Assembly (NCBI GenBank): GCA_945861125.1
Contig: CAMASZ010000002.1
Span: 1-26,589, forward strand
Direction of reading: 5' to 3'
From: Rickettsia typhi
GTDB taxonomy: Bacteria > Pseudomonadota > Alphaproteobacteria > Rickettsiales > UBA1997
Length of the DNA stretch: 26,589 bases
Every line of letters starts with the position of its first letter. Positions within the stretch are counted from its first letter, which is position 1. Shown here piece by piece: positions 4,489 to 19,016 of the stretch. Position numbers and translations under genes: made by a program. The notes beneath the pieces were generated by a model. It saw nothing but the letters and a program-made list of their open reading frames with translations. It was not told the origin of the DNA and did no database searches.

Positions 4489-5029
4489 TCATTTAAAAAA
4501 AATAATTTTTTTAACATTTGCTTTAACTCCAAATATTTCATTTCCTCAGCAAAAAGAAATTTTGGAGGTTAATTATTTTGCCTCCTTAAGAGCAAATGAA
4601 ACAAACATTCGCTCTGGACCTGGTCAAAATTATCCTATCAAATATACCTTTAAATTAAAAGGCATTCCGGTTCGTGTTATTAGTGAGTATGATAATTGGA
4701 ATGAGATCGAGGATTTTGATGGTGAAAAAGGTTGGGTAACTCAAAGTCTATTGACTAAAAAAAGAACTTTAATTGTTAATACTGATAAGAGTTTTGTAAA
4801 TATGCACAAGAAAGCTTCTGAAAAATCTAAAATTATTTATCGTCTCGAAAATTATGTAATTGGTGACTATCTAAAATGTAATGAAAAATGGTGTGCTATA
4901 AAAATTAACAATAATAGAGGATGGGTTGATAAAAAAGAATTATTTGGCGCTGATCGCGACAAAAAAGATATTGATATAAAAGATAAAAAAAATATCGAAA
5001 AGAATTCGCTTAATGAGGAAAGATTATAG
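4481..5029 (+). CDS. exported double-SH3-domain protein (COG3807 type)
   Basis: This 182-residue protein has an N-terminal hydrophobic segment (about 7-20) after basic residues, consistent with a Sec signal peptide ending near FPQQ. Two bacterial SH3-like repeats follow. The first, about 35-97, contains TNIRSGPGQNYPI and ends in GWVTQSLLTKKRT. The second, about 98-156, contains KWCAIKINNNRGWV. This arrangement matches the alphaproteobacterial COG3807 proteins (SH3_4 repeats), which are thought to bind cell-wall peptides in the periplasm; the exact role is unknown. The C-terminal ~25 residues are a Lys/Asp-rich tail. It overlaps the end of glmU by 8 bp, so translation is probably coupled, and the neighbour fits a cell-wall role. 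Confidence 0.85.
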   Translation: MINHLKKIIFLTFALTPNISFPQQKEILEVNYFASLRANETNIRSGPGQNYPIKYTFKLKGIPVRVISEYDNWNEIEDFDGEKGWVTQSLLTKKRTLIVNTDKSFVNMHKKASEKSKIIYRLENYVIGDYLKCNEKWCAIKINNNRGWVDKKELFGADRDKKDIDIKDKKNIEKNSLNEERL

Positions 5030-5089
5030 TAAAGCAAATTCTTTGTTTTTTACCATGCATTCAGAATTAATCTAATCTGGTTAGTTATT

Positions 5090-5324
5090 ATACCAAATCC
5101 CATCTTTAAAAGTTTTAAAAAAATTAAAATTCTAACTTCATACTTTTGGTACAAAAATCTCTAAAAAATTTTTCAGTCGCGCTAAAGCAAGCGACACGAG
5201 CCTCAGCTGTATGAATATACAGCTTCATTTTTTAAAGATTTTTATCTCAAAAACCGTGTCGTTGCCCTAGGGCACACTAATAAAATATTTTGTTACAATT
5301 TTATTTAAAGATGGGATTTGGTAT
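5090..5324 (+). repeat. palindromic dispersed element, copy A1 (235 bp)
   Basis: Bounded by inverted repeats ataccaaatcccatctttaa (left) and its complement, ending ggatttggtat (right). The interior carries a hairpin-bearing core: gtcgc (5176-5180) pairs with gcgac (5191-5195). An 8-bp perfect stem 5205-5212/5217-5224 has a GAAT loop. A 12-base palindrome tgccctagggca lies at 5263-5274. The same core recurs in the copies at 8390 and, inverted, at 10945. No reading frame. It fills the gap between the convergent SH3-protein and secF genes, and no clean target duplication is visible. Confidence 0.85.
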
Positions 5325-5358
5325 TAGTAGAAATTGTTTTAAGTTGACCTCGATAAAA

Positions 5359-6285
5359 TTAATCTCTAATTGAGTTTAATCTAGTTTTTTTGCCTCTTGT
5401 TGGATCGAAATAAATTAATATTGGAGCAGATATATAAATTGATGAGTAAGTCCCTATTAATATCCCAAAAAAAGTTGCGACACTAAAGCTAAATAGTACA
5501 TCACCTCCAAATATTATTAGTGCAAGCAATGATATTAGGGTAGTGCTTGCTGTTAGAACTGTTCTACTTAAGGTGGAATTGGTGCTTGAATTTATTATTT
5601 GTGATAAATTAGTTTTTTTATATTTTCTCATATTTTCTCTAATTCGGTCATATATAACTACTGAATCATTTATAGAGTATCCTATTATAGTAAGAATTGC
5701 GGCAATGGAAGTTAGATTAAATTCTAGTTGAGTAATAGCAAAAAACCCTAAAGTAACTATGGCATCATGAACTAATGCAAAAATTCCGCCCAACCCAAAT
5801 TGCCAGTCAAAGCGAATCCAGATATAGATCATTATAAAAATAAAAGAAAGAAATAGTGCAAAAAAGCCTTTATAAATTAATTCAGAACCAATTTGTGGAC
5901 CAACATAGTCAATTTTTCGATACTCAATGTTTGAGAAATTTTGTTGAAGAATTTTCTGAATAGATTTTACAACCAATGACTGTTCTTGATTACTTTTAGA
6001 GATCCTAATGAGAATATCTTTTTCTCCCGAGCTTTGGATTTGAACGTCTTTAATTTCTGAAGAGATAGTATTTCTTATTTTTGATATATCCACATTATCT
6101 TCAAATCTGGCTTCAATTAATATTCCGCCTGAAAAATCAATTCCTAAATTTAAACCTCTAGTAAATATGGCAATTAATGAAGCAATAATGCAAAGAATAG
6201 AAAAACCGATTGCAATCTTATGAATAGACATAAAATCAACCTTAGTGTTGCTAAAAAGAGATCTTATTTTGGTAAGTAATATCAT
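5359..6285 (-). CDS. secF: protein translocase subunit SecF
   Basis: SecF with SecD uses the proton-motive force to help pull exported proteins through SecYEG. The 308-residue protein has a first membrane segment at about 22-44, a periplasmic domain opening with the family motif GIDFSGG, and then five membrane segments. IGYSINDSVVIYDRIREN and RTVLTASTTL are the conserved SecF signatures in TM4/TM5. Length is normal for a separate SecF. There is no secD on either side here, so the two subunits are encoded apart or secD lies outside the window. It lies 180 bp downstream of rpsT on the same strand and probably has its own promoter. No Shine-Dalgarno is visible before the ATG. Confidence 0.97.
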   Translation of the reverse strand: MILLTKIRSLFSNTKVDFMSIHKIAIGFSILCIIASLIAIFTRGLNLGIDFSGGILIEARFEDNVDISKIRNTISSEIKDVQIQSSGEKDILIRISKSNQEQSLVVKSIQKILQQNFSNIEYRKIDYVGPQIGSELIYKGFFALFLSFIFIMIYIWIRFDWQFGLGGIFALVHDAIVTLGFFAITQLEFNLTSIAAILTIIGYSINDSVVIYDRIRENMRKYKKTNLSQIINSSTNSTLSRTVLTASTTLISLLALIIFGGDVLFSFSVATFFGILIGTYSSIYISAPILIYFDPTRGKKTRLNSIRD

Positions 6286-6465
6286 TTTTGCTTGAGATAT
6301 AAGACTATTAAAAAATAACTATATCGAAATTTAAAATTGTGGCAGTTTTTAGTAAAATCAATAGTCTTATGAAGTTTTGTTATTTGTAATAAAAGAATTT
6401 TAAGATACTGATCAGGAAAAATTTAGATCAAACCCTTTTAGAAAACTTTAAACTTGATGTAAAAT

Positions 6466-6744
6466 TTAGTTAGCTTGTTTACTTTTAATTTTACGAATTT
6501 GTAAGGATAATTTATTCAATTTGCGAGAAGCAGAATTTAGTTTCATTACTTTTTTGGTAACTCCTCTCATAATCTCTGGCTCTAGAGATTTGAGAGCTTC
6601 GCGAGCTTTTTTTTCATCACCACTTTTAATTGCTAAATCTACTTTTTTAATAAAAGACCTGATACGATTTATTCTTGAAGAATTAACTATATTTTTTCTT
6701 TTACTTACTCGATTAGCCTTTTGTGCCGATTTTGTATTAGCCAT
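6466..6744 (-). CDS. rpsT: 30S ribosomal protein S20
   Basis: A 92-residue, strongly basic, helical protein that binds 16S rRNA in the small ribosomal subunit. The N-terminus MANTKSAQKANRVSKRKN and the tail ASRKLNKLSLQIRKIK are characteristic of bacterial S20, and length is usual. It sits 61 bp downstream of serS on the same strand with no visible terminator between, so some readthrough from serS is possible. The 61-bp leader is AT-rich and has no obvious Shine-Dalgarno sequence, which is odd for a highly expressed ribosomal protein gene. Confidence 0.97.
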   Translation of the reverse strand: MANTKSAQKANRVSKRKNIVNSSRINRIRSFIKKVDLAIKSGDEKKAREALKSLEPEIMRGVTKKVMKLNSASRKLNKLSLQIRKIKSKQAN

Positions 6745-6805
6745 AGTTTGTGTTTATTTGTTATTTTTTAAAAAGAATTCAATAGACTATAGGTTTTATT
6801 GCTAT

Positions 6806-8068
6806 TTAGCAAGATATTTTCTTCTGATTTGCCATATAAGGTTGTAATTCTTTTGGAATATCAATTGAGCCATCGCTATTTTGATAGTTTTCAAGAATTG
6901 CAATTATTGTTCTTCCAACCGCAAGCGCTGAGCCATTTAGAGTATGGGCAAAATAAATCTTGCCATTTTTTGACTTATATTTAATTGAAGCTCTTCGAGA
7001 CTGAAAATCTCCACAATTAGAGCAACTAGATATCTCCCGATACTTATTTTGTGAAGGCATCCAGACCTCAATATCATATGTTTTTTTTGAACAAAATCCA
7101 ATATCTCCAGTGCAAAGAATTATTTTTCTAAATGGCAATTCGAGTTTTTTTAATATTTCGCAAGCAATTGAAGTCATTCTATCATGCTCATTTTCTGATT
7201 GATTTTCTGAGGTAATTGAAACTAGTTCAACTTTTTTAAATTGATGTTGTCTTATCATGCCCCTAGTATCTTTGCCAGCTGAACCAGCTTCTCTGCGATA
7301 ACAAGGAGTATAAGAGGTTAGTCGAATTGGAAGATCATCTTCATTGATAGTTTTTTTTGCTAAAATATTTACCAATGAAACTTCTGAAGTTGGAATTAAC
7401 CAATAACCATCATTGGTTGAAAAGGCTTCCTCTGAAAATTTTGGTAACTGCCCAGAGAATTTCATTGCTTCACTTTTTACTAAATTGGGAGGTGAAATTT
7501 CTTTGTAACCATTAGCTAAAGCTATGTCTAACATAAAATTTGAAAGAGCTCTTTCTAAACGAGCTAAATCTCCCATCAAAGTTGAAAATCTTGCTCCAGA
7601 CATCATTGCTGATTGTTCAAAATCAAGCATATTAAGCTTCTCTCCTATTTCTTCATGAGATAAGGGGGTAAATGAAAAATTTTTAATTATACCAAATTCT
7701 TCAATAACTTTATTATGATTTTCGTTATTACCAATTGGAACGTCATCAGCTGGTATATTGGGAATATTTAATAAAATGTTATTTAATTTTTCTTCTACTT
7801 CAAAATTATTTTCTGCTTCATGCAATAATTGATTGATTTGTTTTGATTCTTCGAGAAAAGGTTCAACATTGCCGTTATTTCTTTTTACTTCTGCGATATC
7901 TTTAGCAATCTTGTTTCTTTTTGATTGCAATTCTTGGATAAAGAAAATTTTTTTCCTTTTTTCTTCATCAAGCAACAAGATTTCTTTAATATTTGGATTG
8001 ATATTACGAGAAAACATAGCATTGTTAAACTTTTCACTATTATCACGAATCCACTTAATATCTATCAT
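6806..8068 (-). CDS. serS: seryl-tRNA synthetase
   Basis: SerRS charges tRNA-Ser (and tRNA-Sec where present) with serine. The 420-residue protein starts with the long antiparallel coiled-coil arm (about 30-100) that contacts the tRNA variable arm. The class II catalytic domain follows. Visible motifs are TSE at 227-229 (serine binding), motif 2 around CYRRE at 256-260 and MIRQHQFKKVEL at 271-282, and motif 3 NGSALAVGRTIIAILEN at 378-394. Length is typical. It is the first gene of a minus-strand group followed by rpsT. Its upstream gap holds two copies of the dispersed palindromic element. Confidence 0.97.
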   Translation of the reverse strand: MIDIKWIRDNSEKFNNAMFSRNINPNIKEILLLDEEKRKKIFFIQELQSKRNKIAKDIAEVKRNNGNVEPFLEESKQINQLLHEAENNFEVEEKLNNILLNIPNIPADDVPIGNNENHNKVIEEFGIIKNFSFTPLSHEEIGEKLNMLDFEQSAMMSGARFSTLMGDLARLERALSNFMLDIALANGYKEISPPNLVKSEAMKFSGQLPKFSEEAFSTNDGYWLIPTSEVSLVNILAKKTINEDDLPIRLTSYTPCYRREAGSAGKDTRGMIRQHQFKKVELVSITSENQSENEHDRMTSIACEILKKLELPFRKIILCTGDIGFCSKKTYDIEVWMPSQNKYREISSCSNCGDFQSRRASIKYKSKNGKIYFAHTLNGSALAVGRTIIAILENYQNSDGSIDIPKELQPYMANQKKISC

Positions 8069-8199
8069 CTTTTTAAAATAATTGTTTAAAGAAAATAATC
8101 AGTTGATTTAAAGATCACAAATTCTGTAGAATTAAATTTTTAAAACTTGTACTAAAACCATCTGAAAAAATTGGAGTCAAATTTTGTTGCTATGGTATA

Positions 8200-8388
8200 A
8201 TACCAATTATCTTTTTAAAATAAACATTTTTCACAAAAATTTTTAGATAAAAAAGTTAAAAAATGAAATGCTGTATACCCATACAACACGAGGCCCATAC
8301 AAAATAAATCCTTCTAGCTTTTTTAGCAAAAATTTTAAAGAAGATGTTTATAAAACTCTTTAGTATAATTTAAAATGATAATTGGTAT
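8200..8388 (-). repeat. palindromic dispersed element, copy B1 (189 bp)
   Basis: Bounded by inverted repeats ataccaattatc...aaa and tttaaaatgataattggtat. The same 189-bp sequence occurs in opposite orientation at 12325-12513 with only scattered differences, by eye about nine bases in ten alike. On the minus strand the interior contains a GCCTC...TATACAGC...TTTTTTAA core related to that of copies A1 and C1, although the terminal repeats differ. No reading frame. Together with copy C1 it fills the 576-bp gap between serS and dapE; the remaining AT-rich sequence at 8069-8199 holds nothing I can recognise. Confidence 0.88.
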
Positions 8389-8389
8389 A

Positions 8390-8601
8390 ATACCATTTCC
8401 ATCATAAAATGAATCATTTGCAAATAACAAATTAAGTTTCATCTTTTTGTTTTTGGCTAAAAATCTCTAAAAACTTTTTATTCAGTCGCGCTAAAGTGAA
8501 TGACATGAGCCTCAGCCCTATAGTTATACAACTTCATTTTTTAAAGATTTTTATCACAAAAATATTTCTCTTAATTTATCATTTTATGATGCAAACGGTA
8601 T
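8390..8601 (+). repeat. palindromic dispersed element, copy C1 (212 bp)
   Basis: The left end ataccatttccatcataaa and the right end (complement ataccgtttgcatcataaa) form an inverted repeat of about 23 bp with two mismatches. The interior, ttcagtcgcgctaaag through gagcctcag to cttcattttttaaagat, is closely similar to the core of copy A1 at 5170-5240, but the ends are different from both A and B types. One base separates it from copy B1. It ends about 43 bp before the dapE ATG, so it may lie in the dapE promoter or leader. Confidence 0.85.
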
Positions 8602-8644
8602 ATAAAACAAAAATTTTTCCTTCTTTTTATAAAAATTGCAAGCA

Positions 8645-9811
8645 ATGAAAATATCAGAGATTAATTTTTCACAAAACTTAATAAGAATCCCTTCATATAG
8701 TGGATTTAATCATGAAATAATAAATTTGATCAATGAAACTTTGTGTAATCTTGATTTTAAATGTGATATATTAGAATTTGATGGTAATAACTCTTATAAA
8801 GTCAATAATATTCACGCGATATACAATCCAAATAATCATTCAAAAACATTATATTTTGCAGGTCATACTGACATTGTAAAAGAAGGGAATATTGCACTAT
8901 GGAGCCATAGTCCTTTTGATGCAAAAATTGTTGATAATAAAATGATAGGTCGAGGAGCTTCTGATATGAAATGCGCTATAGCTTGTTTTATTTCAGCTAT
9001 TGCCGATTTATTAGAAAAAAATCCTTACCCTAATTTTGGAATTGGATTAATCATAACCAATGATGAGGAAAGTGATGGTATAAATGGTACTAAAAAAGTA
9101 CTGGAATGGATGAAAAATAATAATTATCCAATTTCATATTGTTTAGTTGGCGAACCAACAAATCCAAAAAAATTTGGTGACATGATAAAAATAGGTCGTA
9201 GAGGTTCAATTAGTTTTAAAATAAAAATTCAAGGCAAGCAGGGTCATGTTGCATATCCAGAAAACGCCCTTAACCCAATTACTGTGATAATTAATTTACT
9301 CAAAATTTTAAAAGATCACAAATTAGATGATGGTAATGAATTTTTTGACAGAAGTAATCTAGAAATAACTAATATTAGTTCAGAAAATCTAGGATCAAAT
9401 GTTATACCTTCTGAAGCTAGTGCTGAGTTTAATATCAGATTTAACAACATTCATAACTCGCAGGATATAATTAATCTTGTTGATTATGCTTGCAAAAAAA
9501 CCATAGGTTTTGGAGCAAATTATCAATTAGATTATAAATTAAGCGGTGAATCTTTTTTAAGCAAACCTGATGTTTTAGCAAAAGTTACTCAAGAGGTTGT
9601 TTTAGAAATTACGGGTAGAAAGCCAATTTTAAGCACCAGTGGAGGAACTTCTGATGCAAGATTTATCAAAGACTATTCAGAAGTGGTAGAAATTGGATTG
9701 GTAAATGAAACTGCTCATAGGGTTAATGAATATTCAAAAATTGAAGAAATTGAACAACTAAAAAATACTTATCTAAAAATATTAGAAAAAATGAATTCAG
9801 TCTTAAAATGA
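8645..9811 (+). CDS. dapE: succinyl-diaminopimelate desuccinylase
   Basis: DapE is a di-zinc M20-family hydrolase that removes succinate from N-succinyl-LL-diaminopimelate, giving the precursor of lysine and of the peptidoglycan cross-link. Metal and catalytic positions are visible: His74 and Asp76 in GHTD, Asp107 in GASDMK, Glu141/Glu142 in NDEESDG, the Glu in GEPTNP, and the late His in TAHRVNE. The GGTSDARF motif near the C-terminus is typical of DapE rather than other M20 peptidases. With the ATG at 8645 the protein has 388 residues; a TTG at 8636 in frame is less likely. Its last codons overlap the next gene by 4 bp (ATGA), so the two are translationally coupled. Confidence 0.95.
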   Translation: MKISEINFSQNLIRIPSYSGFNHEIINLINETLCNLDFKCDILEFDGNNSYKVNNIHAIYNPNNHSKTLYFAGHTDIVKEGNIALWSHSPFDAKIVDNKMIGRGASDMKCAIACFISAIADLLEKNPYPNFGIGLIITNDEESDGINGTKKVLEWMKNNNYPISYCLVGEPTNPKKFGDMIKIGRRGSISFKIKIQGKQGHVAYPENALNPITVIINLLKILKDHKLDDGNEFFDRSNLEITNISSENLGSNVIPSEASAEFNIRFNNIHNSQDIINLVDYACKKTIGFGANYQLDYKLSGESFLSKPDVLAKVTQEVVLEITGRKPILSTSGGTSDARFIKDYSEVVEIGLVNETAHRVNEYSKIEEIEQLKNTYLKILEKMNSVLK

Positions 9812-10614
9812 AAAAAAATAAAATTTTAGGAGTTTTAACTGTTATTTTTTTAAGTTCATGTTCGATATTTACTATCGAAAAAAATAATTTTGATTGCCAA
9901 GAAATTGATCATGAAATTGAATTAAAAAAATCTTTATTTAAAAAACTCAGCAAAAAAGAATTAAATAAAAGAAGTAAAATTGAAGTTCCTACTGTAAGCT
10001 CATTAGATAAGTTGAGTGTTTTTTCGGAAATTGTGAATGCAATTAAAAATGCTAAAGCAAATCAGGAGTTTATCGCCGTAGATTTGAGAGGTTATAAGAA
10101 AGTTGATTTGGGTAATATAGTTATTGCCAATTCAAGTCCCACACTTTTACATCAATATTTAAGAACAAGCAAATTTTCTCAAGGATTCTTTGCTTTAATA
10201 AATATTAACTCAAAATCAATTGATATTTATCCGCCAGAAGTTAACAAAATATTTAAAAAAGAGAAAATAAAGCGTGGCGATTTAGAAGATCTAGAAATAA
10301 TAATTAATGTTAGCAACTCGGAATATATTGATGGAAATATGAAATTTTCTTCTGGTCAAAAATTTTCTTTAATTGCTGATAACATATTAAAACCATATCG
10401 TTTAGATCTAAGAGAAGCAAGTAATATGCAATTTAATTTAAATAAGAAATGGATAATGAATCTATACAGCATAGAAAACAATAAGTTGGAGGGTGGAAAA
10501 ATCACAACTGGGTTATTTAAATACATTAATAATAAAAATTCAAAAATACTTATACATAAATTTGATAATTCATTTGCTTATTGTTATAAAGATATCAATG
10601 GACAAAAATTTTAA
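9808..10614 (+). CDS. predicted lipoprotein of unknown function
   Basis: I do not recognise this 268-residue protein. It begins with a basic N-terminus, a hydrophobic stretch and a lipobox L15-S16-S17-C18, so it is predicted to be lipid-anchored at Cys18. The mature part is mostly hydrophilic and Lys/Asn-rich, and nothing in it looks like a catalytic motif. It starts inside the last codon of dapE (ATGA overlap) and is followed after 7 bp by another small lipoprotein gene. The operon position suggests an envelope role, but that is inference from neighbours only. Confidence 0.75.
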   Translation: MKKNKILGVLTVIFLSSCSIFTIEKNNFDCQEIDHEIELKKSLFKKLSKKELNKRSKIEVPTVSSLDKLSVFSEIVNAIKNAKANQEFIAVDLRGYKKVDLGNIVIANSSPTLLHQYLRTSKFSQGFFALININSKSIDIYPPEVNKIFKKEKIKRGDLEDLEIIINVSNSEYIDGNMKFSSGQKFSLIADNILKPYRLDLREASNMQFNLNKKWIMNLYSIENNKLEGGKITTGLFKYINNKNSKILIHKFDNSFAYCYKDINGQKF

Positions 10615-10621
10615 AATTTAT

Positions 10622-10939
10622 ATGCATAAAAAAACTATCTCTATTTTACTGGTTCTATCATTATTTAGTTGCTATACTTATAACACAGATCTTAACAAGT
10701 TAGAAAAAATTGAAATTTCTTCAACAAAAGATATCAAAAAAGGGAAAGCGTGTGGCAATTACTTATTCGGTGGCTTTGAAATTCCTTATGTTGGAGAGAC
10801 TTCAATTAAACTTTCTGGTGATCAATCGGTTATTACCGCAATTAAGAATGGTAATATAAAAAAAATTTATGCCATAGATACACTTAAGAAAAGCTATGTT
10901 TTTTACAGTAAAAGATGTACGATAGTTTTTGGTGAATAA
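10622..10939 (+). CDS. TRL-like lipoprotein
   Basis: A 105-residue predicted lipoprotein with lipobox L14-F15-S16-C17 after a hydrophobic leader. The C-terminal ~65 residues follow the pattern of the TRL-like family: GKACGNYLFGG, then a Gly-Asp-x-Ser-x-x-x-Ala-x-Lys-x-Gly-Asn-x-Lys-Lys-Ile stretch, and TIVFGE at the end. Proteins of this family are small envelope proteins without a known function. I chose the ATG at 10622 because it starts exactly at the signal peptide. The frame is open further upstream to 10493, but that extension overlaps the preceding gene. The gene is the third of a dapE group, and a decayed palindromic element begins right after its stop. Confidence 0.7.
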   Translation: MHKKTISILLVLSLFSCYTYNTDLNKLEKIEISSTKDIKKGKACGNYLFGGFEIPYVGETSIKLSGDQSVITAIKNGNIKKIYAIDTLKKSYVFYSKRCTIVFGE

Positions 10940-10944
10940 TATTT

Positions 10945-11201
10945 TCTTTTAAATTAATATAACGAAATATTTTTGAGATAAAGACGCACTAAAGCAACGA
11001 CACTTTTTATTCAGTCGTGCTAAAGCAACGACACTTTTTATTCAGTCGTGCTAAAGCAACGACACGATTCTTTAGATAAAAATCTTTAAAAAATGAAGTC
11101 TTATAACTATATAGCCTGAGGCTTTTTGAAGATTTTTTTACCAAAAATATGAAGTTAGAATTTGAATATCATATTTAGTATCAAAAGATGGGATTTGGTA
11201 T
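10945..11201 (-). repeat. palindromic dispersed element, copy D (A-type end, expanded)
   Basis: On the minus strand it starts with the A-type terminus ataccaaatcccatctttt, then attctaacttcatatttttg as in copy A1. The shared core follows (gcctcag..., cttcattttttaaagatt), and then an expanded tandem array. Its other end (10945-10975) aligns with the right end of A1 only through aaatattt-gtta and has lost the terminal inverted repeat. It occupies most of the 302-bp gap between the convergent TRL-like gene and the receiver-protein gene. No reading frame is present. Confidence 0.8.
10986..11066. repeat. 31-bp tandem repeat, about 2.6 copies
   Basis: The unit gtgctaaagcaacgacactt followed by tttattcagtc repeats with a period of exactly 31 bases: copies start near 10986 and 11017, and a partial copy starts at 11048. 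The copies are nearly identical, the first differing at two positions (gcact instead of tgct). The unit corresponds to the hairpin region of the dispersed-element core, so this is an internal expansion of copy D. There are no spacers, so it is not a CRISPR. Confidence 0.9.
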
Positions 11202-11241
11202 AAGGTTTAATGCAAAATTCGGACCGATAAGATTATTTTAT

Positions 11242-12285
11242 TTAGGAAACTAATCTATATGAAGGAATTATAAGAATTGCAGTGTTTTGTTCGTTGCTTG
11301 GAATTTCAAAACGTAAATTTTGTTTATCTAAAATTTTTCCAATAGTTGATTCATCAAAATTAGCAGCAAAATTTGGGTTAGATGATTTTAAATAAAAAAT
11401 CACTGCTAGTTGATTTAGGTGGTCCATCATAATTGAAATTTGTACTGAAGCTTGATTATCAGATTTAAATATTCCTGCAAATATCTTCTTTAAAGCATCT
11501 AAAAAAACTGTTTTATCTGCTTTAATTTTTGATAAAGTTTTGTCTTCATCGGAGATTTCTATAGAAATTCTGTTTTTATATTTGTCATTTAAACTTGATA
11601 CAAAATCATTAATGAAATCATAAATGGAAAATATTTCTTGTTCAACATTTACTCTACTATCAATAACTGAATCGTCTAATGCGTTATATATTGTTGCATA
11701 AGCTTTCATAGCGTTAATGTAAATCTTGTTAATATCTTCTTCATAACGACGATGCGGAAATGCTCCGTATGGTTCTTTTCTAAGCGTGTCTGCGGTTTGA
11801 GCGATAACATTTAAGTAATTATATAAATCTTTTGGCAATAGAGATGATATTTGTTCTTTGATGTTGTTTATATGGCGATTATTTTGTTCAGAGTTTCTTT
11901 TTGCATTAACAGTTTTTTCTCTAATTTTTGAAATCATTAAATCAAAATCTACCGGTTTGATTAGGTAGTCATTGGCAAGAAGGTCTACCCCCTTCATTAT
12001 ATTTTCTTTTTGACCTAAGGCGGATAAAAATATAAAAGGGATATTATTGTTGCGAATGCTTTTTCCTTCTCTGATCATTTTTAAAAGTGAATAACCATCA
12101 ATTTCGGGCATCATTATATCTGAAACGACTAAATCGGGTTTATTTTGGACAAAGCTCTCATAGCCTTTTTTGCCATTCTCAGCTTCAAAAACTTCAAAAC
12201 CCTCATCGCGCAATATTTCAGCGATATTTTCACGAATTTCTTTTTCATCTTCTACACAAAGAATTTTAATTTTTCTATCTTCCAT
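11242..12285 (-). CDS. response regulator receiver fused to a degenerate histidine-kinase-like domain
   Basis: The N-terminal receiver domain (about 6-122) is complete: Glu12/Asp13 acidic pair, phospho-acceptor Asp56 in VSDIMMPEIDG, Ser88 in FLSAL and Lys110 in LIKP. Residues ~145-347 look like an alphaproteobacterial PleC/DivJ-type kinase module, with KEPYGAF..RYEEDINKI and the dimerisation-helix pattern. Where such kinases have His-Glu-Leu, this protein has Lys152-Asp-Leu, so the phospho-acceptor His is missing. The ATP-binding N-box position (LKKIFAGIFK) lacks its Asn, and the Gly-rich ATP motifs are absent. I infer a phosphorylation-controlled adaptor or pseudokinase, not an active kinase; a ChpT-like fold without the His is another way to describe it. 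It is a single-gene unit in a gap bounded on both sides by palindromic elements. Confidence 0.8.
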   Translation of the reverse strand: MEDRKIKILCVEDEKEIRENIAEILRDEGFEVFEAENGKKGYESFVQNKPDLVVSDIMMPEIDGYSLLKMIREGKSIRNNNIPFIFLSALGQKENIMKGVDLLANDYLIKPVDFDLMISKIREKTVNAKRNSEQNNRHINNIKEQISSLLPKDLYNYLNVIAQTADTLRKEPYGAFPHRRYEEDINKIYINAMKAYATIYNALDDSVIDSRVNVEQEIFSIYDFINDFVSSLNDKYKNRISIEISDEDKTLSKIKADKTVFLDALKKIFAGIFKSDNQASVQISIMMDHLNQLAVIFYLKSSNPNFAANFDESTIGKILDKQNLRFEIPSNEQNTAILIIPSYRLVS

Positions 12286-12324
12286 AATTTTAAAATTTAA
12301 TTGAAAAAATTTTTAAACATACTA

Positions 12325-12513
12325 ATACCAATTATCATTTTAAATTATACTAAATAATTTTATAAACATCTTCTTTAAAATTTTTGCTAAAAAATCTAGA
12401 AGGCTTTTTTTGTATGGGCCTCATTTTCTATGGGTATATAGCATTTCGTTTTTTAACTTTTCTGTCTAAGAATTTTTGTGAAGAATGTTTATTTTAAAAT
12501 GATAATTGGTATA
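12325..12513 (+). repeat. palindromic dispersed element, copy B2 (189 bp)
   Basis: An inverted copy of the element at 8200-8388, the same length, with the same terminal repeats (ataccaattatcattttaaa and its complement). Its interior shows ttttgctaaaaaatctagaa, then gtatgggcctcat, gggtatatagcat and tttttaacttttctgtctaa. It lies between the receiver-protein gene and the dnaX end, both on the minus strand. It takes up about half of that 401-bp gap; the rest (12605-12686) is AT-rich with no feature I recognise. Confidence 0.88.
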
Positions 12514-12560
12514 AGGGGTTTTTCAATCTTGTATTTACTTATTTTTATAATTGAGTTTTA

Positions 12561-12604
12561 TAGTAATTCTATCTTTAAACAAATTTAAAGAAAGGATTTG
12601 ATAT
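12561..12604. repeat. decayed minimal A-type palindrome
   Basis: The right arm tttaaagaaaggatttgatat resembles the A-type terminus (tttaaagatgggatttggtat) with a few changes. The left arm tagtaattctatctttaaa is a weak inverted match. The arrangement is like the 54-bp palindrome at 14120-14173 but more diverged. It sits just downstream of dnaX on the minus strand and could form an AT-rich hairpin in that transcript. Confidence 0.45.
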
Positions 12605-12686
12605 TGTAATATTAGCAATAAATTTTTCTAATAAGTAAGAAATAGTTAATGAAAACAAAAAAAATAAAGTAAATTGATTAAATTTA

Positions 12687-13943
12687 TTACAAAATTTTTG
12701 AACCTTCAAAATTTTTTAATATTTCTTTTATTAGCTCTTCTTCGTTGTCAAGCCGATTATTTTTTAGTTGGGAGTGATTATCGGTATTATTTTTAGTTTT
12801 ATTTAAATCGATAAGTAAAGATTTTAGATCAGGAATTGCAATAATGTGACATATTCTTGCCAACAAAACCTCAAATGAATTTTTTGGCATTAAAGAAAAA
12901 TTAATTTCTGAAATCGATTTTGTTATTAGTTGATAAATTCTAAGTAAAATTGAGATATCTACTTTGTTTGCTATTTCAAAAATTTTTTCATTCTGGTTTT
13001 TAGAATATCCTTCAATTTTATAATTCTTCAGTAATTTGGTTAATATAGATCTGTGATTTACCTCTATCAAATCTTGTAGAATTTGTGAAATATCAGAGGT
13101 AAAACTATAAATTTCTAGGAATTTATCTAATGCCATGCGAAACTGCCCAGTTAATAAAAATTCAAATAATTCAATAATTTTGAATCGATCATTAACGCCA
13201 AGCATTTCTTCAACAACAATTGCAGGAAGAAAAGAATCATGATTATTGGTTGCTAGGGCTCTGTCAAGAAGAGATAGTGAGTCACGAACTGAACCCTCAG
13301 AAAATTTTGCAATTAATTCAAGAGCTAAATCTTCTGCTGAAAAGTTTTCTTTTTGTAAAACATTTTTTAAATGATCAACAATTTCTTTTTCATCAAGTCT
13401 TCTCAAATCAAATCTTTGGCAGCGAGATAGAATTGTGATTGGAACTTTACGAATTTCAGTAGTTGCAAAAATGAATTTAACATGAGCTGGTGGTTCTTCT
13501 AAGGTTTTTAATAAAGCATTAAAAGCATTGTTGCTAAGCATATGGACTTCATCAATTATATATATTTTATATTTTGCTAAAACGGCAGAATAAGCTATGG
13601 AGTCGATTATTTCTCGAATATCATCAACACCTGTTCTGCTTGCAGCATCAATCTCTAAAACATCTTGGTGATGAGAATTTGCTATCAATTTGCAATTATC
13701 GCAAACTCCGCAGGCTTTGGCTTGTTGATTCGCTTCTATGTTTGTACAATTAAGAGTTTTAGCAATTATTCTTGCTGAAGTAGTTTTTCCTACTCCACGA
13801 ATTCCGGTAAGAATGTAGGCATGATGAAGACGATTATTTTTTATGGCGTTAGTTAGGGTTTTAACTAAAACATCTTGCCCAATCAGTTCATTGAAATTTT
13901 GAGGGCGGTATTTTCTTGCTAAAACTAGATATGATGAAGACAC
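12687..13943 (-). CDS. dnaX: DNA polymerase III subunit gamma/tau, short form
   Basis: DnaX is the ATPase of the clamp loader and, as tau, links polymerase to helicase. The 418-residue protein has the AAA+ domain with Walker A GIRGVGKT at 47-54, zinc-binding Cys66, Cys78, Cys81 and Cys84, Walker B IIDEVHM at 129-135, and sensor/arginine-finger SRC at 173-175. The collar domain III follows to about 365. After it comes only a ~45-residue tail ending ELIKEILKNFEGSKIL. From memory, alphaproteobacterial DnaX proteins are much longer but finish in a similar helix (FPGAxI-like), so the middle of the tau region appears deleted rather than the gene truncated. The start is GTG at 13943; no ATG is available nearby. 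The 4.5S RNA gene lies directly upstream on the same strand. Confidence 0.95.
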   Translation of the reverse strand: MSSSYLVLARKYRPQNFNELIGQDVLVKTLTNAIKNNRLHHAYILTGIRGVGKTTSARIIAKTLNCTNIEANQQAKACGVCDNCKLIANSHHQDVLEIDAASRTGVDDIREIIDSIAYSAVLAKYKIYIIDEVHMLSNNAFNALLKTLEEPPAHVKFIFATTEIRKVPITILSRCQRFDLRRLDEKEIVDHLKNVLQKENFSAEDLALELIAKFSEGSVRDSLSLLDRALATNNHDSFLPAIVVEEMLGVNDRFKIIELFEFLLTGQFRMALDKFLEIYSFTSDISQILQDLIEVNHRSILTKLLKNYKIEGYSKNQNEKIFEIANKVDISILLRIYQLITKSISEINFSLMPKNSFEVLLARICHIIAIPDLKSLLIDLNKTKNNTDNHSQLKNNRLDNEEELIKEILKNFEGSKIL

Positions 13944-13987
13944 AAAGAATTTTGTAAGTATGAATTATTAGGTTTTATTTAAAGACC

Positions 13988-14077
13988 TTAAGTGAGAGCA
14001 ACCCAAACTTTAATAAATTGAGATGCTTTTTTTCAAATCTGACTCTTTAAATAAAAAAATCTGCCCGCTCCCACCAA
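13988..14077 (-). ncRNA. ffs: 4.5S signal recognition particle RNA, small bacterial type
   Basis: On the minus strand, gagtcagatttgaaaaaaag followed by catctc lines up position by position with the conserved SRP RNA apical core (GGGTCAGGTCCGGAAGGAAG then CAGCCC in E. coli); all differences but one are G-to-A or C-to-T changes. The tetraloop becomes GAAA, still a GNRA loop, closed by UU-AA pairs instead of CC-GG. The asymmetric-loop bases tcag and agca are kept. The outer stem is visible: gtgggagc (14074-14067) pairs with gctctcac (13999-13992) with one G-U. The total of about 90 nt fits a small SRP RNA. Position directly upstream of dnaX is the alphaproteobacterial arrangement. Exact ends are approximate. 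It binds Ffh for co-translational targeting of membrane proteins. Confidence 0.9.
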
Positions 14078-14082
14078 CTCCG

Positions 14083-14110
14083 ATTGTAGTTTTTTTTTAT
14101 AAGTTATCAA
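14083..14110 (-). promoter_or_regulatory. sigma-70-type promoter of the SRP RNA gene
   Basis: On the minus strand there is a -35 box TTGATA (14110-14105), a 16-bp spacer containing a run of nine A, and a -10 box TACAAT (14088-14083). The predicted start, 6-7 bases on, falls at 14076-14077, where the SRP RNA outer stem begins. This agreement between promoter and RNA fold supports both. The A-run in the spacer may bend the DNA. Confidence 0.7.
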
Positions 14111-14119
14111 TGTTTTTTT

Positions 14120-14173
14120 ATATCAAATACTATCTTTAAAGTTTTAAAAAATTTTAAAGATGGTATTTGGTAT
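14120..14173. repeat. minimal A-type palindrome (54 bp)
   Basis: Only the terminal inverted repeats of the A-type element remain: left arm atatcaaatactatctttaa(a) at 14120-14140 and right arm tttaaagatggtatttggta(t) at 14153-14173, with two mismatches, separated by 12 AT bases. It lies between the end of the SPOR gene and the promoter of the SRP RNA, all read on the minus strand. It could form a hairpin ending the argS-SPOR transcript, although no T-run follows it. Confidence 0.8.
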
Positions 14174-14197
14174 AAGGTCTAGTGTTATATTTGGTAT

Positions 14198-15052
14198 TTA
14201 TTCAACAACAATGCAATCAGCTCTATTTCTTTGGGTTTGAATAATATATTTATTACAAAAACTTTCAGCTTCAATTTGATTAAAAAAATAACCAATTTGT
14301 AGTCTGTAGAAAATTCCTCTTCTACCAAGATCAACTTCTTCAATAATGGGTTTTAAACCTTTAAACAAAGAGTGGTGAGCATTATTAACTCCTTTCCATA
14401 TTTCTTCAGCGGTTTGTTTTTTTGACATTGCTGCCAATTGGACTCTGATCATTTTTTTTTCTTGGTTTTTTTTAATGCTTTCTTTTGATGAAGAATATTC
14501 TTCAGTGGAATTATTATTTATTTTTTGAGATTTATTTGGAGAAATAATTTTTTCTTGAGTGATTTTTTCATTACTTTGATTGGTTAAAATACTCTTCTGA
14601 ATATTTTTTTGATTATTATTGTCGTAAACAATAATTGATTGATCATTTGCGGAATTTTTTAGTGATGAGTTGTAATTTGAGTTAATTTCGTTGTCACTAG
14701 ATTTGTTTTTTTCTATTTGCGGAGGTAGAACTGGCTCCGAACTGCTTCTGATCTTAGTTTCTCTTTTTAAATTTTCCTTTTTGTTACCAAATATATCATC
14801 ATAAATAATATGCTTATTGTTATTTTCTTCTTCATTAAATTTAACTTCTTCTTTGATTTTAATTGGTCCCTCTGGAGATTTTATGATCTCAATGTTAGAA
14901 GATGAGTCTTGGTAAATAAAATAATAGGCGTTGATAGTTATGTAAATAAAAATACCAACGGATGCTGATATTCCAATGAGTAGGGCAAGTTTTTTAAAAA
15001 TCCCTAAAGATTTTTTTGGGGGAGTGTATTTTTTATATCCAAAATCTTCCAT
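14198..15052 (-). CDS. SPOR domain membrane protein
   Basis: This 284-residue protein has a basic cytoplasmic N-terminus, one membrane segment (about 20-48) and a long low-complexity Asn/Lys/Ser/Glu-rich linker (about 60-195). The C-terminal domain (about 200-284) begins MIRVQLAAMSKKQTAEEIW and contains GIFYRLQIGYFFNQIEAESF, the SPOR fold that binds denuded peptidoglycan at division sites. The conserved stretch IKSPEGPIKIKEE after the membrane segment is also seen in alphaproteobacterial relatives that follow argS. It starts 17 bp after the argS stop, so the two are an operon. The probable role is at the septum, as for FtsN/DedD-like SPOR proteins; which one is not clear from sequence. Confidence 0.88.
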   Translation of the reverse strand: MEDFGYKKYTPPKKSLGIFKKLALLIGISASVGIFIYITINAYYFIYQDSSSNIEIIKSPEGPIKIKEEVKFNEEENNNKHIIYDDIFGNKKENLKRETKIRSSSEPVLPPQIEKNKSSDNEINSNYNSSLKNSANDQSIIVYDNNNQKNIQKSILTNQSNEKITQEKIISPNKSQKINNNSTEEYSSSKESIKKNQEKKMIRVQLAAMSKKQTAEEIWKGVNNAHHSLFKGLKPIIEEVDLGRRGIFYRLQIGYFFNQIEAESFCNKYIIQTQRNRADCIVVE

Positions 15053-15069
15053 ATTATTTCATTTCTTCA

Positions 15070-16899
15070 TTATTTCATTTCTTCTAAAGCGTTGATGTTA
15101 AATATATCTAAGGCAGTAAAAATTATTTTTTTTACAGCTAGAACCAATAAAATTCTAGCCTCAGTTAATTCTATATTATCTTTTAAAATAAATTTAAGAT
15201 TTTTATTTTCTAAACCTTTATTCCAAAGACCATGAAATTCGGAACTTAGTTCTTGTAAATAAAACGCTATTCGATGTGGTTCAAAATTTACTGCAGACAT
15301 TTCAATTATTCTTGAAAAATTTGCAATTTTTTTTATCAAATTAATTTCACTTTCGTCTTGCAATAATTCTAACTTTTTTTCAAAACTAAAATTAATATTT
15401 ACTTCATGAAAATTACAATCATTTTTTGGAAAAATTTTTTTTGCTAAAACAGGGGTTTCTAAAAATAAATTTCTCAATATAGAACAACACCTTGCGTGGG
15501 CGTATTGAACATAAAAAATTGGATTATCTTTTGATTGTTCAATTACTTTTGATAAGTCAAAATCGAAAGGAGCATCATTTTTTCGAGTTAACATTAAAAA
15601 CCTTAAAACATCAGAACCAACTTCATCAATAACTTGTCTTGCGGTAATAAAATTTCCTGCTCTTTTTGACATTTTAAGTGGTTTACCGTCTTTAACAAAT
15701 TTTACCATCTGACATAAGATTACCTTTAAAATAGCTTGATTATTGGTTAAAGCCAAAACCGCCGCACTTAATCTTTTAACATATCCGGCATGATCATATC
15801 CTAGTGGCATAATAAAAATTTTTGCCCCTCTTTCAAATTTGCTTCTAATGTAAGCCAAATCAGATGCAAAGTAAGTCGGCGTACCATCTGCTTTTTTAAT
15901 AACTCGATCTTGATCATCTCCAAATAAAGAAGATCTAAAAAGAACTTGATCTTTTTCATCATAATCTTCAGGAATTAGGCCAACTCCTTTTTCTGTTTTT
16001 GGTGCCTCTAATTTGCCAACATATACTAAATTACTACTTTGTAAAACTTTTATTGTTTCATTGATTCTGTTATTGTCATGAAGATTTTTTTTCTCTGAAA
16101 AATAGTTATCATGTTTTATACCAAGAGCCAGTAAATCTGATTTTATAATTTCTAACATTTCATCAATAACAAAATTGCGAATTGTTGGAAAATATTCATC
16201 GGGTTTTTTATTTAAAAGTTTATCTTGAAAATTATTCTTTAACTTTTGCCCTATTTCAACTAAATATTCTCCTGGATATAGATCTTCGGTGATTGAAATT
16301 TTTTCTCCAAAGCATTCTAGATATCTTAAATATGCCGATTTAACTAAGTTGTTTATTTGAACGCCGGCATCATTGATATAGTATTCTTTTAAAACATTGT
16401 AACCAACTTTTTGTAATAATTTTGCCAAAACATCACCATAAATAGCTCCTCGTGTATGTCCAACATGAATTGGTCCGGTTGGATTTGGTGAAGCATATTC
16501 TAAATTTACTTTTATGCCTTGGCCAATATTAATAAAACTTAACTCTTTTTTGGAAATAACTTCTTCTAATAGTTTGTAAAAAATTTCATTATTGATGAAT
16601 AAATTAATAAATCCCGGTCCAGCTATTTCAAGTTTGTTTACATTTTTTATAAAAATTGAATCTTGTGATTCGTGTAATTTAGTAATTACTAAATTAGCTA
16701 AATCTCTAGGTGTAAGAGCAAAATCTTTTGATAGGACCATGGCAATATTGCAAGCTAAATCTCCATGAGATTTATCTTTGGAAGGCTCTACCGAAAAATT
16801 ATTTAGGTTATTTTCGTCAATCAAAATATTTCTTTCGCTAGATATTTTTTTTGCAACCAAATAAAATTCTTTTTTGTATAAATTAAAAATGTTGAGCAT
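15070..16899 (-). CDS. argS: arginyl-tRNA synthetase
   Basis: ArgRS charges tRNA-Arg with arginine; it is a class I enzyme that needs the tRNA for adenylation. The protein of 609 residues has the ArgRS N-terminal add-on domain (about 1-120), the HIGH motif as HVGH at 145-148 in ASPNPTGPIHVGHTRGA, and the KMSKS equivalent KMSKR at 409-413. The C-terminal DALR anticodon-binding domain includes QYAHARCCSILRN and FHGLWN. Length is slightly above the usual ~580. I take the ATG at 16899; a TTG directly before it is less likely. It heads an operon with the SPOR gene. Confidence 0.97.
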   Translation of the reverse strand: MLNIFNLYKKEFYLVAKKISSERNILIDENNLNNFSVEPSKDKSHGDLACNIAMVLSKDFALTPRDLANLVITKLHESQDSIFIKNVNKLEIAGPGFINLFINNEIFYKLLEEVISKKELSFINIGQGIKVNLEYASPNPTGPIHVGHTRGAIYGDVLAKLLQKVGYNVLKEYYINDAGVQINNLVKSAYLRYLECFGEKISITEDLYPGEYLVEIGQKLKNNFQDKLLNKKPDEYFPTIRNFVIDEMLEIIKSDLLALGIKHDNYFSEKKNLHDNNRINETIKVLQSSNLVYVGKLEAPKTEKGVGLIPEDYDEKDQVLFRSSLFGDDQDRVIKKADGTPTYFASDLAYIRSKFERGAKIFIMPLGYDHAGYVKRLSAAVLALTNNQAILKVILCQMVKFVKDGKPLKMSKRAGNFITARQVIDEVGSDVLRFLMLTRKNDAPFDFDLSKVIEQSKDNPIFYVQYAHARCCSILRNLFLETPVLAKKIFPKNDCNFHEVNINFSFEKKLELLQDESEINLIKKIANFSRIIEMSAVNFEPHRIAFYLQELSSEFHGLWNKGLENKNLKFILKDNIELTEARILLVLAVKKIIFTALDIFNINALEEMK

Positions 16900-16959
16900 C
16901 AATTTTTAATAAATCTTGTTTAATAAAATTTTAAAATTAGCTAAGCTAAAACTAGTTAT

Positions 16960-17044
16960 ATCAATTACACCCAATTACTAATGTTAGCGCGAATGCTAAA
17001 ATCTTATTTTTGTTGTAATTTGATTTAAAGATTGGATTTGGTAT
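16960..17044. repeat. partial A-type dispersed element
   Basis: The right end, ttgttgtaatttgatttaaa then gattggatttggtat, matches the right end of copy A1 (ttgttacaattttatttaaa then gatgggatttggtat). Only a small hairpin ttagc-gcgaat-gctaa is left of the core, and the left terminus is not convincing. It lies in the 329-bp gap between the divergent argS and ABC-exporter genes, where both promoters must be. The rest of that gap (17045-17228) is AT-rich, with only weak promoter-like hexamers. Confidence 0.6.
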
Positions 17045-17228
17045 TAGATAAATTCAAACTAAAATTTTGCAGTTTTAATTAGCTTTTATACATAATAACA
17101 TTTTAATTTAAAAACACCAAGTGTAGATTTACTATAATAAAAACATACTAAAAGCCATGATAAATAACAAATGGCACTGTCGCAAATCAATTTTTTTGTT
17201 GAAATTTTCATAATTTGAAAAATCTTGA

Positions 17229-19016
17229 ATGCATAAAATTCAAAACAGAAATTTCATGTCAACTGACTACTCAAGTACACCATATCTAATAAAAAGAATA
17301 ACCAAGGAATATATATTTCCACATTGGAAAACTTTCTTGATCTCAGTAGTATTGATGCTTGTTATTGCTGGAACAACATCTCTTCATGCTTGGTTAATCA
17401 AGCCAGCTTTAGATTCAGTTTTTGTTGAAAAAGATTATCACGCCTTAATCTATATTCCAATTGCAGTTTTAATGATCACTTTTATCAAAGGCTTTTCAAC
17501 CTACTACCAACTATTAACAATGAATATTCTTTCACTAAGAATAACTTCTGATATGCGCATAGTTTTATATAAACACTTTATTAAATCAGATATTTCAAAG
17601 CTACATAACAAATCATCGGGTGACATGACTGCAAGCATTATCAATGAGATTAATGCGATGGTTGGTTTGATAAATACATGTCTAAATGGATTTGTAAAAC
17701 AATTATTTACTTTAATTGCATTAATAATTGTAATGTTTAATCAAAGTTTTGAATTATCAATCGTTGCCTTTGTTGGTATGCCAATTGCTGCATATCCAAT
17801 ATATAAAATAGGTAGAAAATTAAGAAATTTGTCTTTTAAAAATCAAGAAATGTCAGCTAAGTTTAATTCACAGATGAGTGATACTTTGCAATATTCCAAA
17901 CTTGTAAAATCATATCATTGTGAAGATTTTGAAATAAAAAGAATGTCCTTAATTATTGAATCAATCTATAAAATGGGCAAAAAAATTTCTCGCATCTCTT
18001 TAATTTCATCTCCTTTTGTTGAAAGTCTTGCTGGTTTTGGTGTTGCGGCAGTAATATGGTATGGGGGACATCAAGTGATTACTGGAAAAACAACCCCTGG
18101 AGCTTTCTTTTCTTTTTTTGCAGCAATGATGATGGCTTATAAACCGCTAAAATCAGTATCAAATATGAATAGTGGTGTTCAATTTGGATTAGCGGCAGCT
18201 ACTAGATTTTATACAACAATTGATGAACCACAAAACATTATTGATAAAGAAGGGGCGATCGATATAAAAAATATTAAAGGTAATATTGAATTTAAAGACG
18301 TCACTTTTTCTTATAACAATGAAAAAAATGCTCTTGATAAAGTTACTTTTTCAATTCCATCAGGAAAAACTGTTGCTTTAGTTGGTCATTCCGGAGGAGG
18401 AAAATCAACTGTTATGAATATGATTTTGCGTTTTTATGATCCAAATTCAGGAGAGGTAAGTTTAGATGGATATAATATTAAAGACCTAACCATTAAATCC
18501 TTGAGAAGTTCTATGTCTGTTGTTAATCAAGAAGTTATGCTTTTTGATGATACGATAATTGAAAATATTAGATATGGTAAAGAAGATGCCACGGAAGAAG
18601 AAATAATCAAGGCTGCAAAATTAGCAGAAGCTGATGAATTTATTCAGGAATTGCCAGAAAAATATAATACACAAATTGGTCAAAATGGTATAAGGCTTTC
18701 AGGCGGACAGCGTCAAAGAATTGCAATAGCAAGAGCAATTTTATACAACGCCCCTATTTTATTACTTGATGAAGCTACTTCAGCGCTTGATCCAATCTCT
18801 GAGAAACTAATTAAAGATGCACTTGGTAATTTGATGAAAAATAAAACATCATTAGTGATTGCCCATAGACTATCAACAATAATTCATAGTGATAAAATTA
18901 TTGTTATTGCTCATGGAAAAGTTATAGAACAAGGAACGCATAAAGATTTATTGGAGAAAAATGGCTACTATGCTAGTCTGTATTTAAAACAATTTGAAAT
19001 TAATGAAGATGTATAA
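17229..19016 (+). CDS. MsbA-type ABC exporter (lipid/multidrug), fused membrane and ATPase domains
   Basis: A 595-residue half-transporter. Six membrane segments fill about 35-330, and the nucleotide-binding domain starts near 348. Key motifs are Walker A GHSGGGKST from about residue 386, signature LSGGQ at 490-494, Walker B ILLLDEA with Asp514/Glu515, and the H-loop His546 in AHRLST. The overall pattern is that of MsbA, which flips lipid A core across the inner membrane, and similar lipid or drug exporters; the substrate cannot be read from the sequence. The ATG at 17229 and an in-frame ATG at 17256 are both possible starts. The gene end overlaps a small basic ORF by 14 bp. Confidence 0.92.
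   Translation: MHKIQNRNFMSTDYSSTPYLIKRITKEYIFPHWKTFLISVVLMLVIAGTTSLHAWLIKPALDSVFVEKDYHALIYIPIAVLMITFIKGFSTYYQLLTMNILSLRITSDMRIVLYKHFIKSDISKLHNKSSGDMTASIINEINAMVGLINTCLNGFVKQLFTLIALIIVMFNQSFELSIVAFVGMPIAAYPIYKIGRKLRNLSFKNQEMSAKFNSQMSDTLQYSKLVKSYHCEDFEIKRMSLIIESIYKMGKKISRISLISSPFVESLAGFGVAAVIWYGGHQVITGKTTPGAFFSFFAAMMMAYKPLKSVSNMNSGVQFGLAAATRFYTTIDEPQNIIDKEGAIDIKNIKGNIEFKDVTFSYNNEKNALDKVTFSIPSGKTVALVGHSGGGKSTVMNMILRFYDPNSGEVSLDGYNIKDLTIKSLRSSMSVVNQEVMLFDDTIIENIRYGKEDATEEEIIKAAKLAEADEFIQELPEKYNTQIGQNGIRLSGGQRQRIAIARAILYNAPILLLDEATSALDPISEKLIKDALGNLMKNKTSLVIAHRLSTIIHSDKIIVIAHGKVIEQGTHKDLLEKNGYYASLYLKQFEINEDV

Follow-up and report, generated by a model that had tools for sequence, protein, structure and literature searches.

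A stretch of 26,589 nucleotides from Rickettsia typhi (contig CAMASZ010000002.1 of assembly GCA_945861125.1), called the window below, carries between its genes a set of short palindromic elements. These are probably miniature inverted-repeat transposable elements (MITEs) of the IS630 family, which bear the ends of several related transposases and a common passenger hairpin exchanged between end types. The mosaic, insertion and parent-element tests were run in the genomes of relatives, chiefly G015 (same family), and we infer that the mosaic result obtained in G015 extends to the window's own species. The elements have the anatomy of MITEs, being short, without a transposase gene and bounded by terminal inverted repeats. 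These inverted ends start with TACC or TACT and are flanked by TNA, mostly TWA.

The original prediction had placed related palindromic elements at seven loci, and direct reading together with scans bore this out, with coordinates right within a few bases. A1, B1, B2 and C1 are two-ended, S is a 52-bp solo palindrome, and D and F are one-ended remnants:

5091..5323, unstranded: element A1, 233 bp, class-A ends TACCAAATCCCATCTTTAAA, TTA/TTA duplication at 5088-5090 and 5324-5326
5174..5198, + strand: module M in the left arm of A1, CAGTCGCGCTAAAGC..GACACG
5199..5234, + strand: central hairpin core of A1, with a terminator-like stem at 5205-5224 and a T run
8201..8387, unstranded: element B1, 187 bp, class-B ends TACCAATTATC, TAA/TAA duplication
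8391..8600, unstranded: element C1, 210 bp, class-C ends TACCATTTCCATCATAAAAT / TACCGTTTGCATCATAAAAT, flanks TAA/TAT
8483..8507, + strand: module M of C1, in its left arm
10950..11200, unstranded: element D, A-type right end at 11200 followed by TAA, core reversed, left end decayed
10982..11074, + strand: module M triplicate in D, three tandem 31-bp copies
12326..12511, unstranded: element B2, 186 bp, class-B ends, TAA/TAA
14121..14172, unstranded: element S, 52-bp palindrome with two class-A ends and no core, flanks TTA/TAA
17027..17043, + strand: element F, a right end of class A with TTA directly after it; a left end near 16958 is not convincing

A1 and C1 have an 85-bp stretch in common at 85% identity, yet their ends are unlike, so that the common core under unlike ends that had been predicted is present in the window itself. 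The two ends of A1 are identical over 20 bp; those of C1 carry mismatches, and C1 directly adjoins B1. B1 and B2 are 90-94% alike and lie in opposite orientation. The core has the layout of an A run, a stem and a T run, over 40-44 bp. Module M, which is 25-31 bp long and GC-richer, has five matches in the window (one in A1, one in C1 and three in D), and a diverged inverted copy lies in A1 at about 5254-5277. Outside the window it was rare among the sequences compared at that stage, with one good match (L102) and another that is likely due to chance (L047). A1 and C1 agree in the core and in having M in the left arm, while an element of G037 (L288) has M in its right arm only; the arms of A1 are nearer to this element than to C1. 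When the window was scanned with the class-A end pattern at up to three mismatches, six matches were found, where 100 shuffles gave 0.15 on average. A de novo screen for TWA followed by TACC ends with a 17-bp inverted match gave five pairs against none in one shuffle; one of them, 8059-8387, uses the right end of B1 and is spurious, which leaves A1, B1, B2 and S. The possible eighth copy at 12561 is doubtful: neither the class-A end scan nor the de novo screen recovered it, and it is at best a decayed copy.

Relatives were entered through the window's SerS. The entry sequences L001-L003 encode SerS proteins 69-74% identical to it, and the family set consists of the 61 genomes of the family of G002, the source genome of L001. 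Coverage of G015 reached 1,139,746 of about 1.4 million bases, the first stretches being picked at match sites; in G014 and G011 every stretch was picked in this way, and G042 was sampled blind, with up to 20 kb from each of its first 20 contigs. A core profile search of G015 gave 104 distinct loci in 1.14 Mb, of which 68 had clear ends and 54 had TWA on both sides. Copies were rotated to one core orientation before comparison.

We then compared cores, arms and ends in G015. The end classes were redefined before this test, because the first expressions left many ends as 'other', and CTTAAT variants were merged into E1. Both ends fell into the same class in 61 of the 68 copies (49 E1, 8 E3 and 4 E4); the fixation index (Fst) was calculated on these 61, the seven mixed copies being excluded. 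The 44 columns of the core hairpin were not separated by end class (Fst 0.085, p 0.198), whereas the left arm (0.766), the right arm (0.577) and the ends (0.54-0.57) were, with p<=0.002, and the change at the hairpin boundary was sharp in 8-column steps. Thus, what the original prediction had described as a mosaic, and not as one continuous family drifting gradually, is what was found in G015. Core variation was 0.174 within and 0.190 between classes. Three of the eight E3 cores lay within 0.02 of an E1 core and two were identical; the core of the E3 copy L269 is identical to E1 cores, and that of the E4 copy L144 is unlike all others. Moreover, five mixed copies (L121, L246, L153, L235 and L144) have one arm of each type, beyond the ends, and chimeras with E3/E1 and E1/E5 arms are present. 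Identical cores under unlike ends, together with these chimeras, support the predicted exchange of modules, mobilisation of one passenger hairpin by several transposases, or both. The two ends of one copy resembled each other more than random pairs at positions 6-10 (1.29 versus 2.05 mismatches) and 11-17 (2.31 versus 3.04), in both cases outside all 2000 permutations, and no such difference was found at positions 1-5. The inner segments of an element's two ends thus change together.

Insertion left a duplication of 3 bp. In 49 of the 54 G015 copies, the same middle W was found on both sides (Fisher 4.7e-10); end-picking favoured TACCA and TWA, which biases the share of TWA but leaves the agreement of W unbiased. 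At one core orientation, TTA/TTA (28 copies) and TAA/TAA (21 copies) both occur. Therefore the middle base belongs to the target and not to the element, and a 2-bp TA duplication with one additional element base is ruled out. An empty site was also found in G015: the element locus L139 198-368 has a paralogue at 3525-3617 with a single TTA, 98.9% identical over 93 bp. IS630 elements duplicate a 2-bp TA. Such a duplication, which would be expected of an IS630-derived element resembling the repeat unit of pneumococcus (RUP), was not what we found here, where 3 bp of the form TNA are duplicated. At two places in G015 (L142 9312-9655; L253 11023-11388 in reverse-strand coordinates), copies abut head to tail as GGTA|TACC without an intervening triplet, an arrangement that slippage or a circular or rolling intermediate could produce.

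The original prediction had called for a search for full-length elements or transposases with the same ends, and IS630-family elements (DDE_3, NF033545) with resembling ends were found in relatives, namely three in G041 (IS-a, IS-b and IS-c), one each in G009 (IS-d) and G226, and another in G015 at contig ends:

IS-a, G041 contig ends: 11 ends at 9 loci
IS-b, G041: 1,116 bp, two frames
IS-c, G041: cut by a contig end
IS-d, G009 L309 1504-2593: 1,090 bp with inverted ends and TAA/TAA flanks; its two frames, 164 and 180 aa long, both match NF033545
IS630 element of G226, L307 about 1187-2453: TAA/TAA

IS-d is complete in outline. Since its ORF2 protein is 54% identical to that of IS-b, the two are different elements. 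The flanks of IS-a are TAA, TTA, TGA and TCA. MITE ends equal to an insertion sequence (IS) end at 19-20 of 20 positions were found once each for IS-b (G042 L175), IS-c (G042 L188) and IS-a (G014 L195), so that one MITE of each of two classes in G042 and one in G014 match an autonomous element. In the window, class A matches the end of IS-a at 17/18. Eight class-C ends at G015 contig ends were inspected: three carry the coding sequence for an IS630 C-terminus (50% over 30 aa), four show the other end and one is too short. No transposase was seen by eye in the stretches of 600-3633 bp between ends in G015, G042, G014 and G011, nor among 125 other G015 ends, judged on the lengths of their open reading frames (ORFs) only. 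The G226 element also contains a distinct palindromic insert (L307, about 2214-2359), with AGACCTCTTGCATAACC at one border and the complement of AGACCTCTTGCATAACC at the other; it overlaps the longer transposase frame in the 5' region of that frame. Of the four G226 loci retrieved first, three show a similar sequence.

Class-A ends (up to two mismatches) occur in 19 of the 61 family genomes, with 153 in G015 and a single match in six of the 19; the reversed control pattern gave three matches across all 61. DDE_3 was detected in 9 of these 19 genomes against 4 of the 42 without class-A ends (Fisher 0.0017). Class-B ends were found in 4 of the 61 genomes with no control match. The class-C pattern was found in 19 of them, standing above its control only in G015 (16), G042 (7) and perhaps G033 (3). 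Of 262 genomes of the order, 26 matched a slightly altered class-A pattern, and for the control no match was listed. In three genomes of the order (G162, G285 and G181, at L278, L285 and L282), elements of 123-157 bp have TACC ends, other interiors and flanks that are mostly TWA-matched.

Several observations weigh against a mosaic of IS630-type MITEs. When 12-20 stem columns per side are added to the core, it separates by class (Fst 0.425, p 0.002), which restricts the common module to the hairpin together with the A run and the T run, and the copy L247, labelled E4, has E1-like arms. IS-b's own flanks are unlike (TTA/TAA) and the duplication around C1 is imperfect (TAA/TAT). The match between the window's class B and IS-d reaches 14-15/18 (p 0.02-0.045), and class B did not stand out against the first set of IS elements (p 0.06-0.18). 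For C1, the left end matches the G015 class-C ends over a short length (12/12, then 14/18, p 0.013) and IS-b at 13/18 (p 0.12), and the right end reaches 11/18 (p 0.22); class E3 matches an IS end at 12/20 at best. Furthermore, IS-d and the G015 class-C ends were retrieved with the B and C patterns, so that their p values are not independent. Because this similarity arises partly by construction, our confidence is slightly lowered; an independent point is that IS630 genes, which come from a separate family search, lie between or beside B- or C-type ends. The class-C pattern also had eight control matches among the family genomes. Lastly, no IS630 gene was observed within the window, and DDE_3 was not detected in 10 of the 19 genomes that have class-A ends. 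Repeats collapsed at contig ends may explain the missing matches, such collapse having been observed only in G015 and G041.

A single MITE family moved by one transposase, its ends drifting while selection, for example as a terminator, held the core without any exchange, would agree with the TACC or TACT start and TNA flanks of the ends. It would also agree with an inner stem kept by different pair types in 13 representatives, in which pair 4 takes four Watson-Crick types in 10/13 and pair 8 is kept in 13/13; these were selected to have a loop of 4 bases, a choice that excludes families with loops of another kind and fixes pairs 1-3. Such retention says either that the fold matters or that the palindrome itself renews the stem. 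On this explanation, however, the core should not be as variable within classes as between them. The same core alleles occur in different classes, which disfavours selection on one sequence; the chimeric arms and the resemblance of the ends to distinct IS630 elements, not one, also speak against it, and we regard it as unlikely. A second explanation, that the elements are kept mainly for the cell, as mobile bidirectional terminators or mRNA-stability hairpins, is less likely still. A role at transcript ends or in mRNA stability had been suggested originally, and what stands of it is the A-run, stem and T-run layout and one terminator-like match inside A1. The predicted folds of A1, B1, B2, C1 and D are stable (-38 to -81 kcal/mol, without a shuffle control), and no core lies in an ORF in G015. 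Yet the six terminator-like matches in 4900-17300 are near chance (mean 3.6, sd 2.2), and S is a palindrome without core. Gene orientation around the 84 placed G015 loci (46 co-directional, 19 convergent and 19 divergent) is near background, and the support for a convergent excess varies with the baseline chosen (by count, p 0.14; by length, p 0.013).

The Rickettsiales-like host and the palindromic form could also recall Rickettsia palindromic elements (RPEs), or repetitive extragenic palindromes and their hairpin doublets (REP/REPIN) moved by a REP-associated tyrosine transposase (RAYT). A RAYT would account neither for a duplication of 3 bp nor for long inverted ends that have DDE parents. 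In-frame insertion of a coding palindrome was not found either: no core midpoint fell within an ORF of at least 100 aa at any of the 104 G015 loci, though such ORFs cover 85% of the sequence, and the window elements likewise sit outside the main ORFs. The predicted intergenic placement thus holds, and, in the parts of the sources available, RPEs are in contrast often inside ORFs and coding (PMC10969869, PMC2229807). This origin is very improbable.

Coming back to IS630-type MITEs with exchanged interiors, each end class would be recognised in trans by an IS630 transposase of its own, these transposases being different but related. The transposase would insert the element at TNA, mostly TWA, and duplicate these 3 bp, while the central hairpin of 40-44 bp would be a passenger common to elements with unlike ends. 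Recombination or gene conversion within the core may carry this hairpin from one end type to another, and would also yield copies whose two ends differ. The boundaries of the core, like the chimeras, speak for an exchange within it, with recombination, gene conversion and replication template switching as possible routes. It is conceivable, but rather doubtful, that the hairpin is a second-order selfish unit, a parasite of MITEs spreading by conversion between mini-transposon lineages. If so, it would outlive the loss of any one IS630 transposase and could change vehicle.

A MITE is usually regarded as a deletion derivative that depends on a single parent element. In the present case one interior lies within several types of end, which resemble those of different IS630 parents, and recombinant copies (7/68) are common enough to be measured, which makes vehicle switching by non-autonomous elements directly testable. 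This would also account for a repeat family in 19 of the 61 genomes of a little-known Rickettsiales-like group. Our literature searches, limited to open-licence PMC papers, listed no report of MITEs with a common interior under several IS630-type ends. The closest known system is RUP with IS630-Spn1. As far as the available text of two papers describes it, RUP is a 107-bp, intergenic, AT-rich MITE of 108-110 copies with stem-loop transcripts and ends similar to those of the IS630 element IS630-Spn1 (PMC2229807, PMC3049150). Both are intergenic MITEs with IS630-like ends; RUP, in that text, is a simple repeat at TA-containing targets, whereas the present elements are mostly 160-235 bp long, duplicate 3 bp and have several end classes on a common core, plus chimeras. 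RPEs resemble them in being palindromic Rickettsiales repeats of several families (about 105-150 bp in the portions consulted; PMC10969869, PMC2229807), but are often placed in ORFs and encode peptides; the present elements are intergenic in G015 and carry DDE-type ends and duplications. The BOX elements of pneumococcus are likewise modular composites; in the excerpt available, modules boxA, B and C vary in number inside one element type (PMC3049150), while here the ends change around a constant core. Tn3-derived inverted-repeat miniature elements (TIMEs) are non-autonomous and called mosaic, but they belong to the Tn3 family, and the mosaicism, by the title of the source, is that of transposons built from TIMEs (PMC4133298).

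As a whole, the window is AT-rich (28% GC) and contains housekeeping genes, among them those for SecF, SerS, an M20 peptidase, DnaX and ArgS. Among the 120 SerS matches listed, five full-length ones are 94-100% identical, probably including the window's own, and the remaining full-length ones are 67-76% identical; the few named relatives are Proteobacteria, Alphaproteobacteria or Rickettsiales bacteria. An Rfam scan at gathering thresholds matched only a tRNA. Exact patterns of the element gave no match, either two-ended in the genome contig collection or one-ended in the viral contig collection.

A TWA duplication suggests IS5/IS1031. As candidates for an IS5-type partner, 14 DDE_Tnp_1 and DUF4096 loci were inspected; seven had an end-like match nearby (up to five mismatches) and none was bracketed by ends. 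At 17172-17192 of the window, TGGCACTGTCGCAAATCAATT resembles the inverted repeat GAGGGGACCGTCGCAAATCAAATC of a DDE_Tnp_1 IS in G015 (L164) and is perhaps a remnant end.

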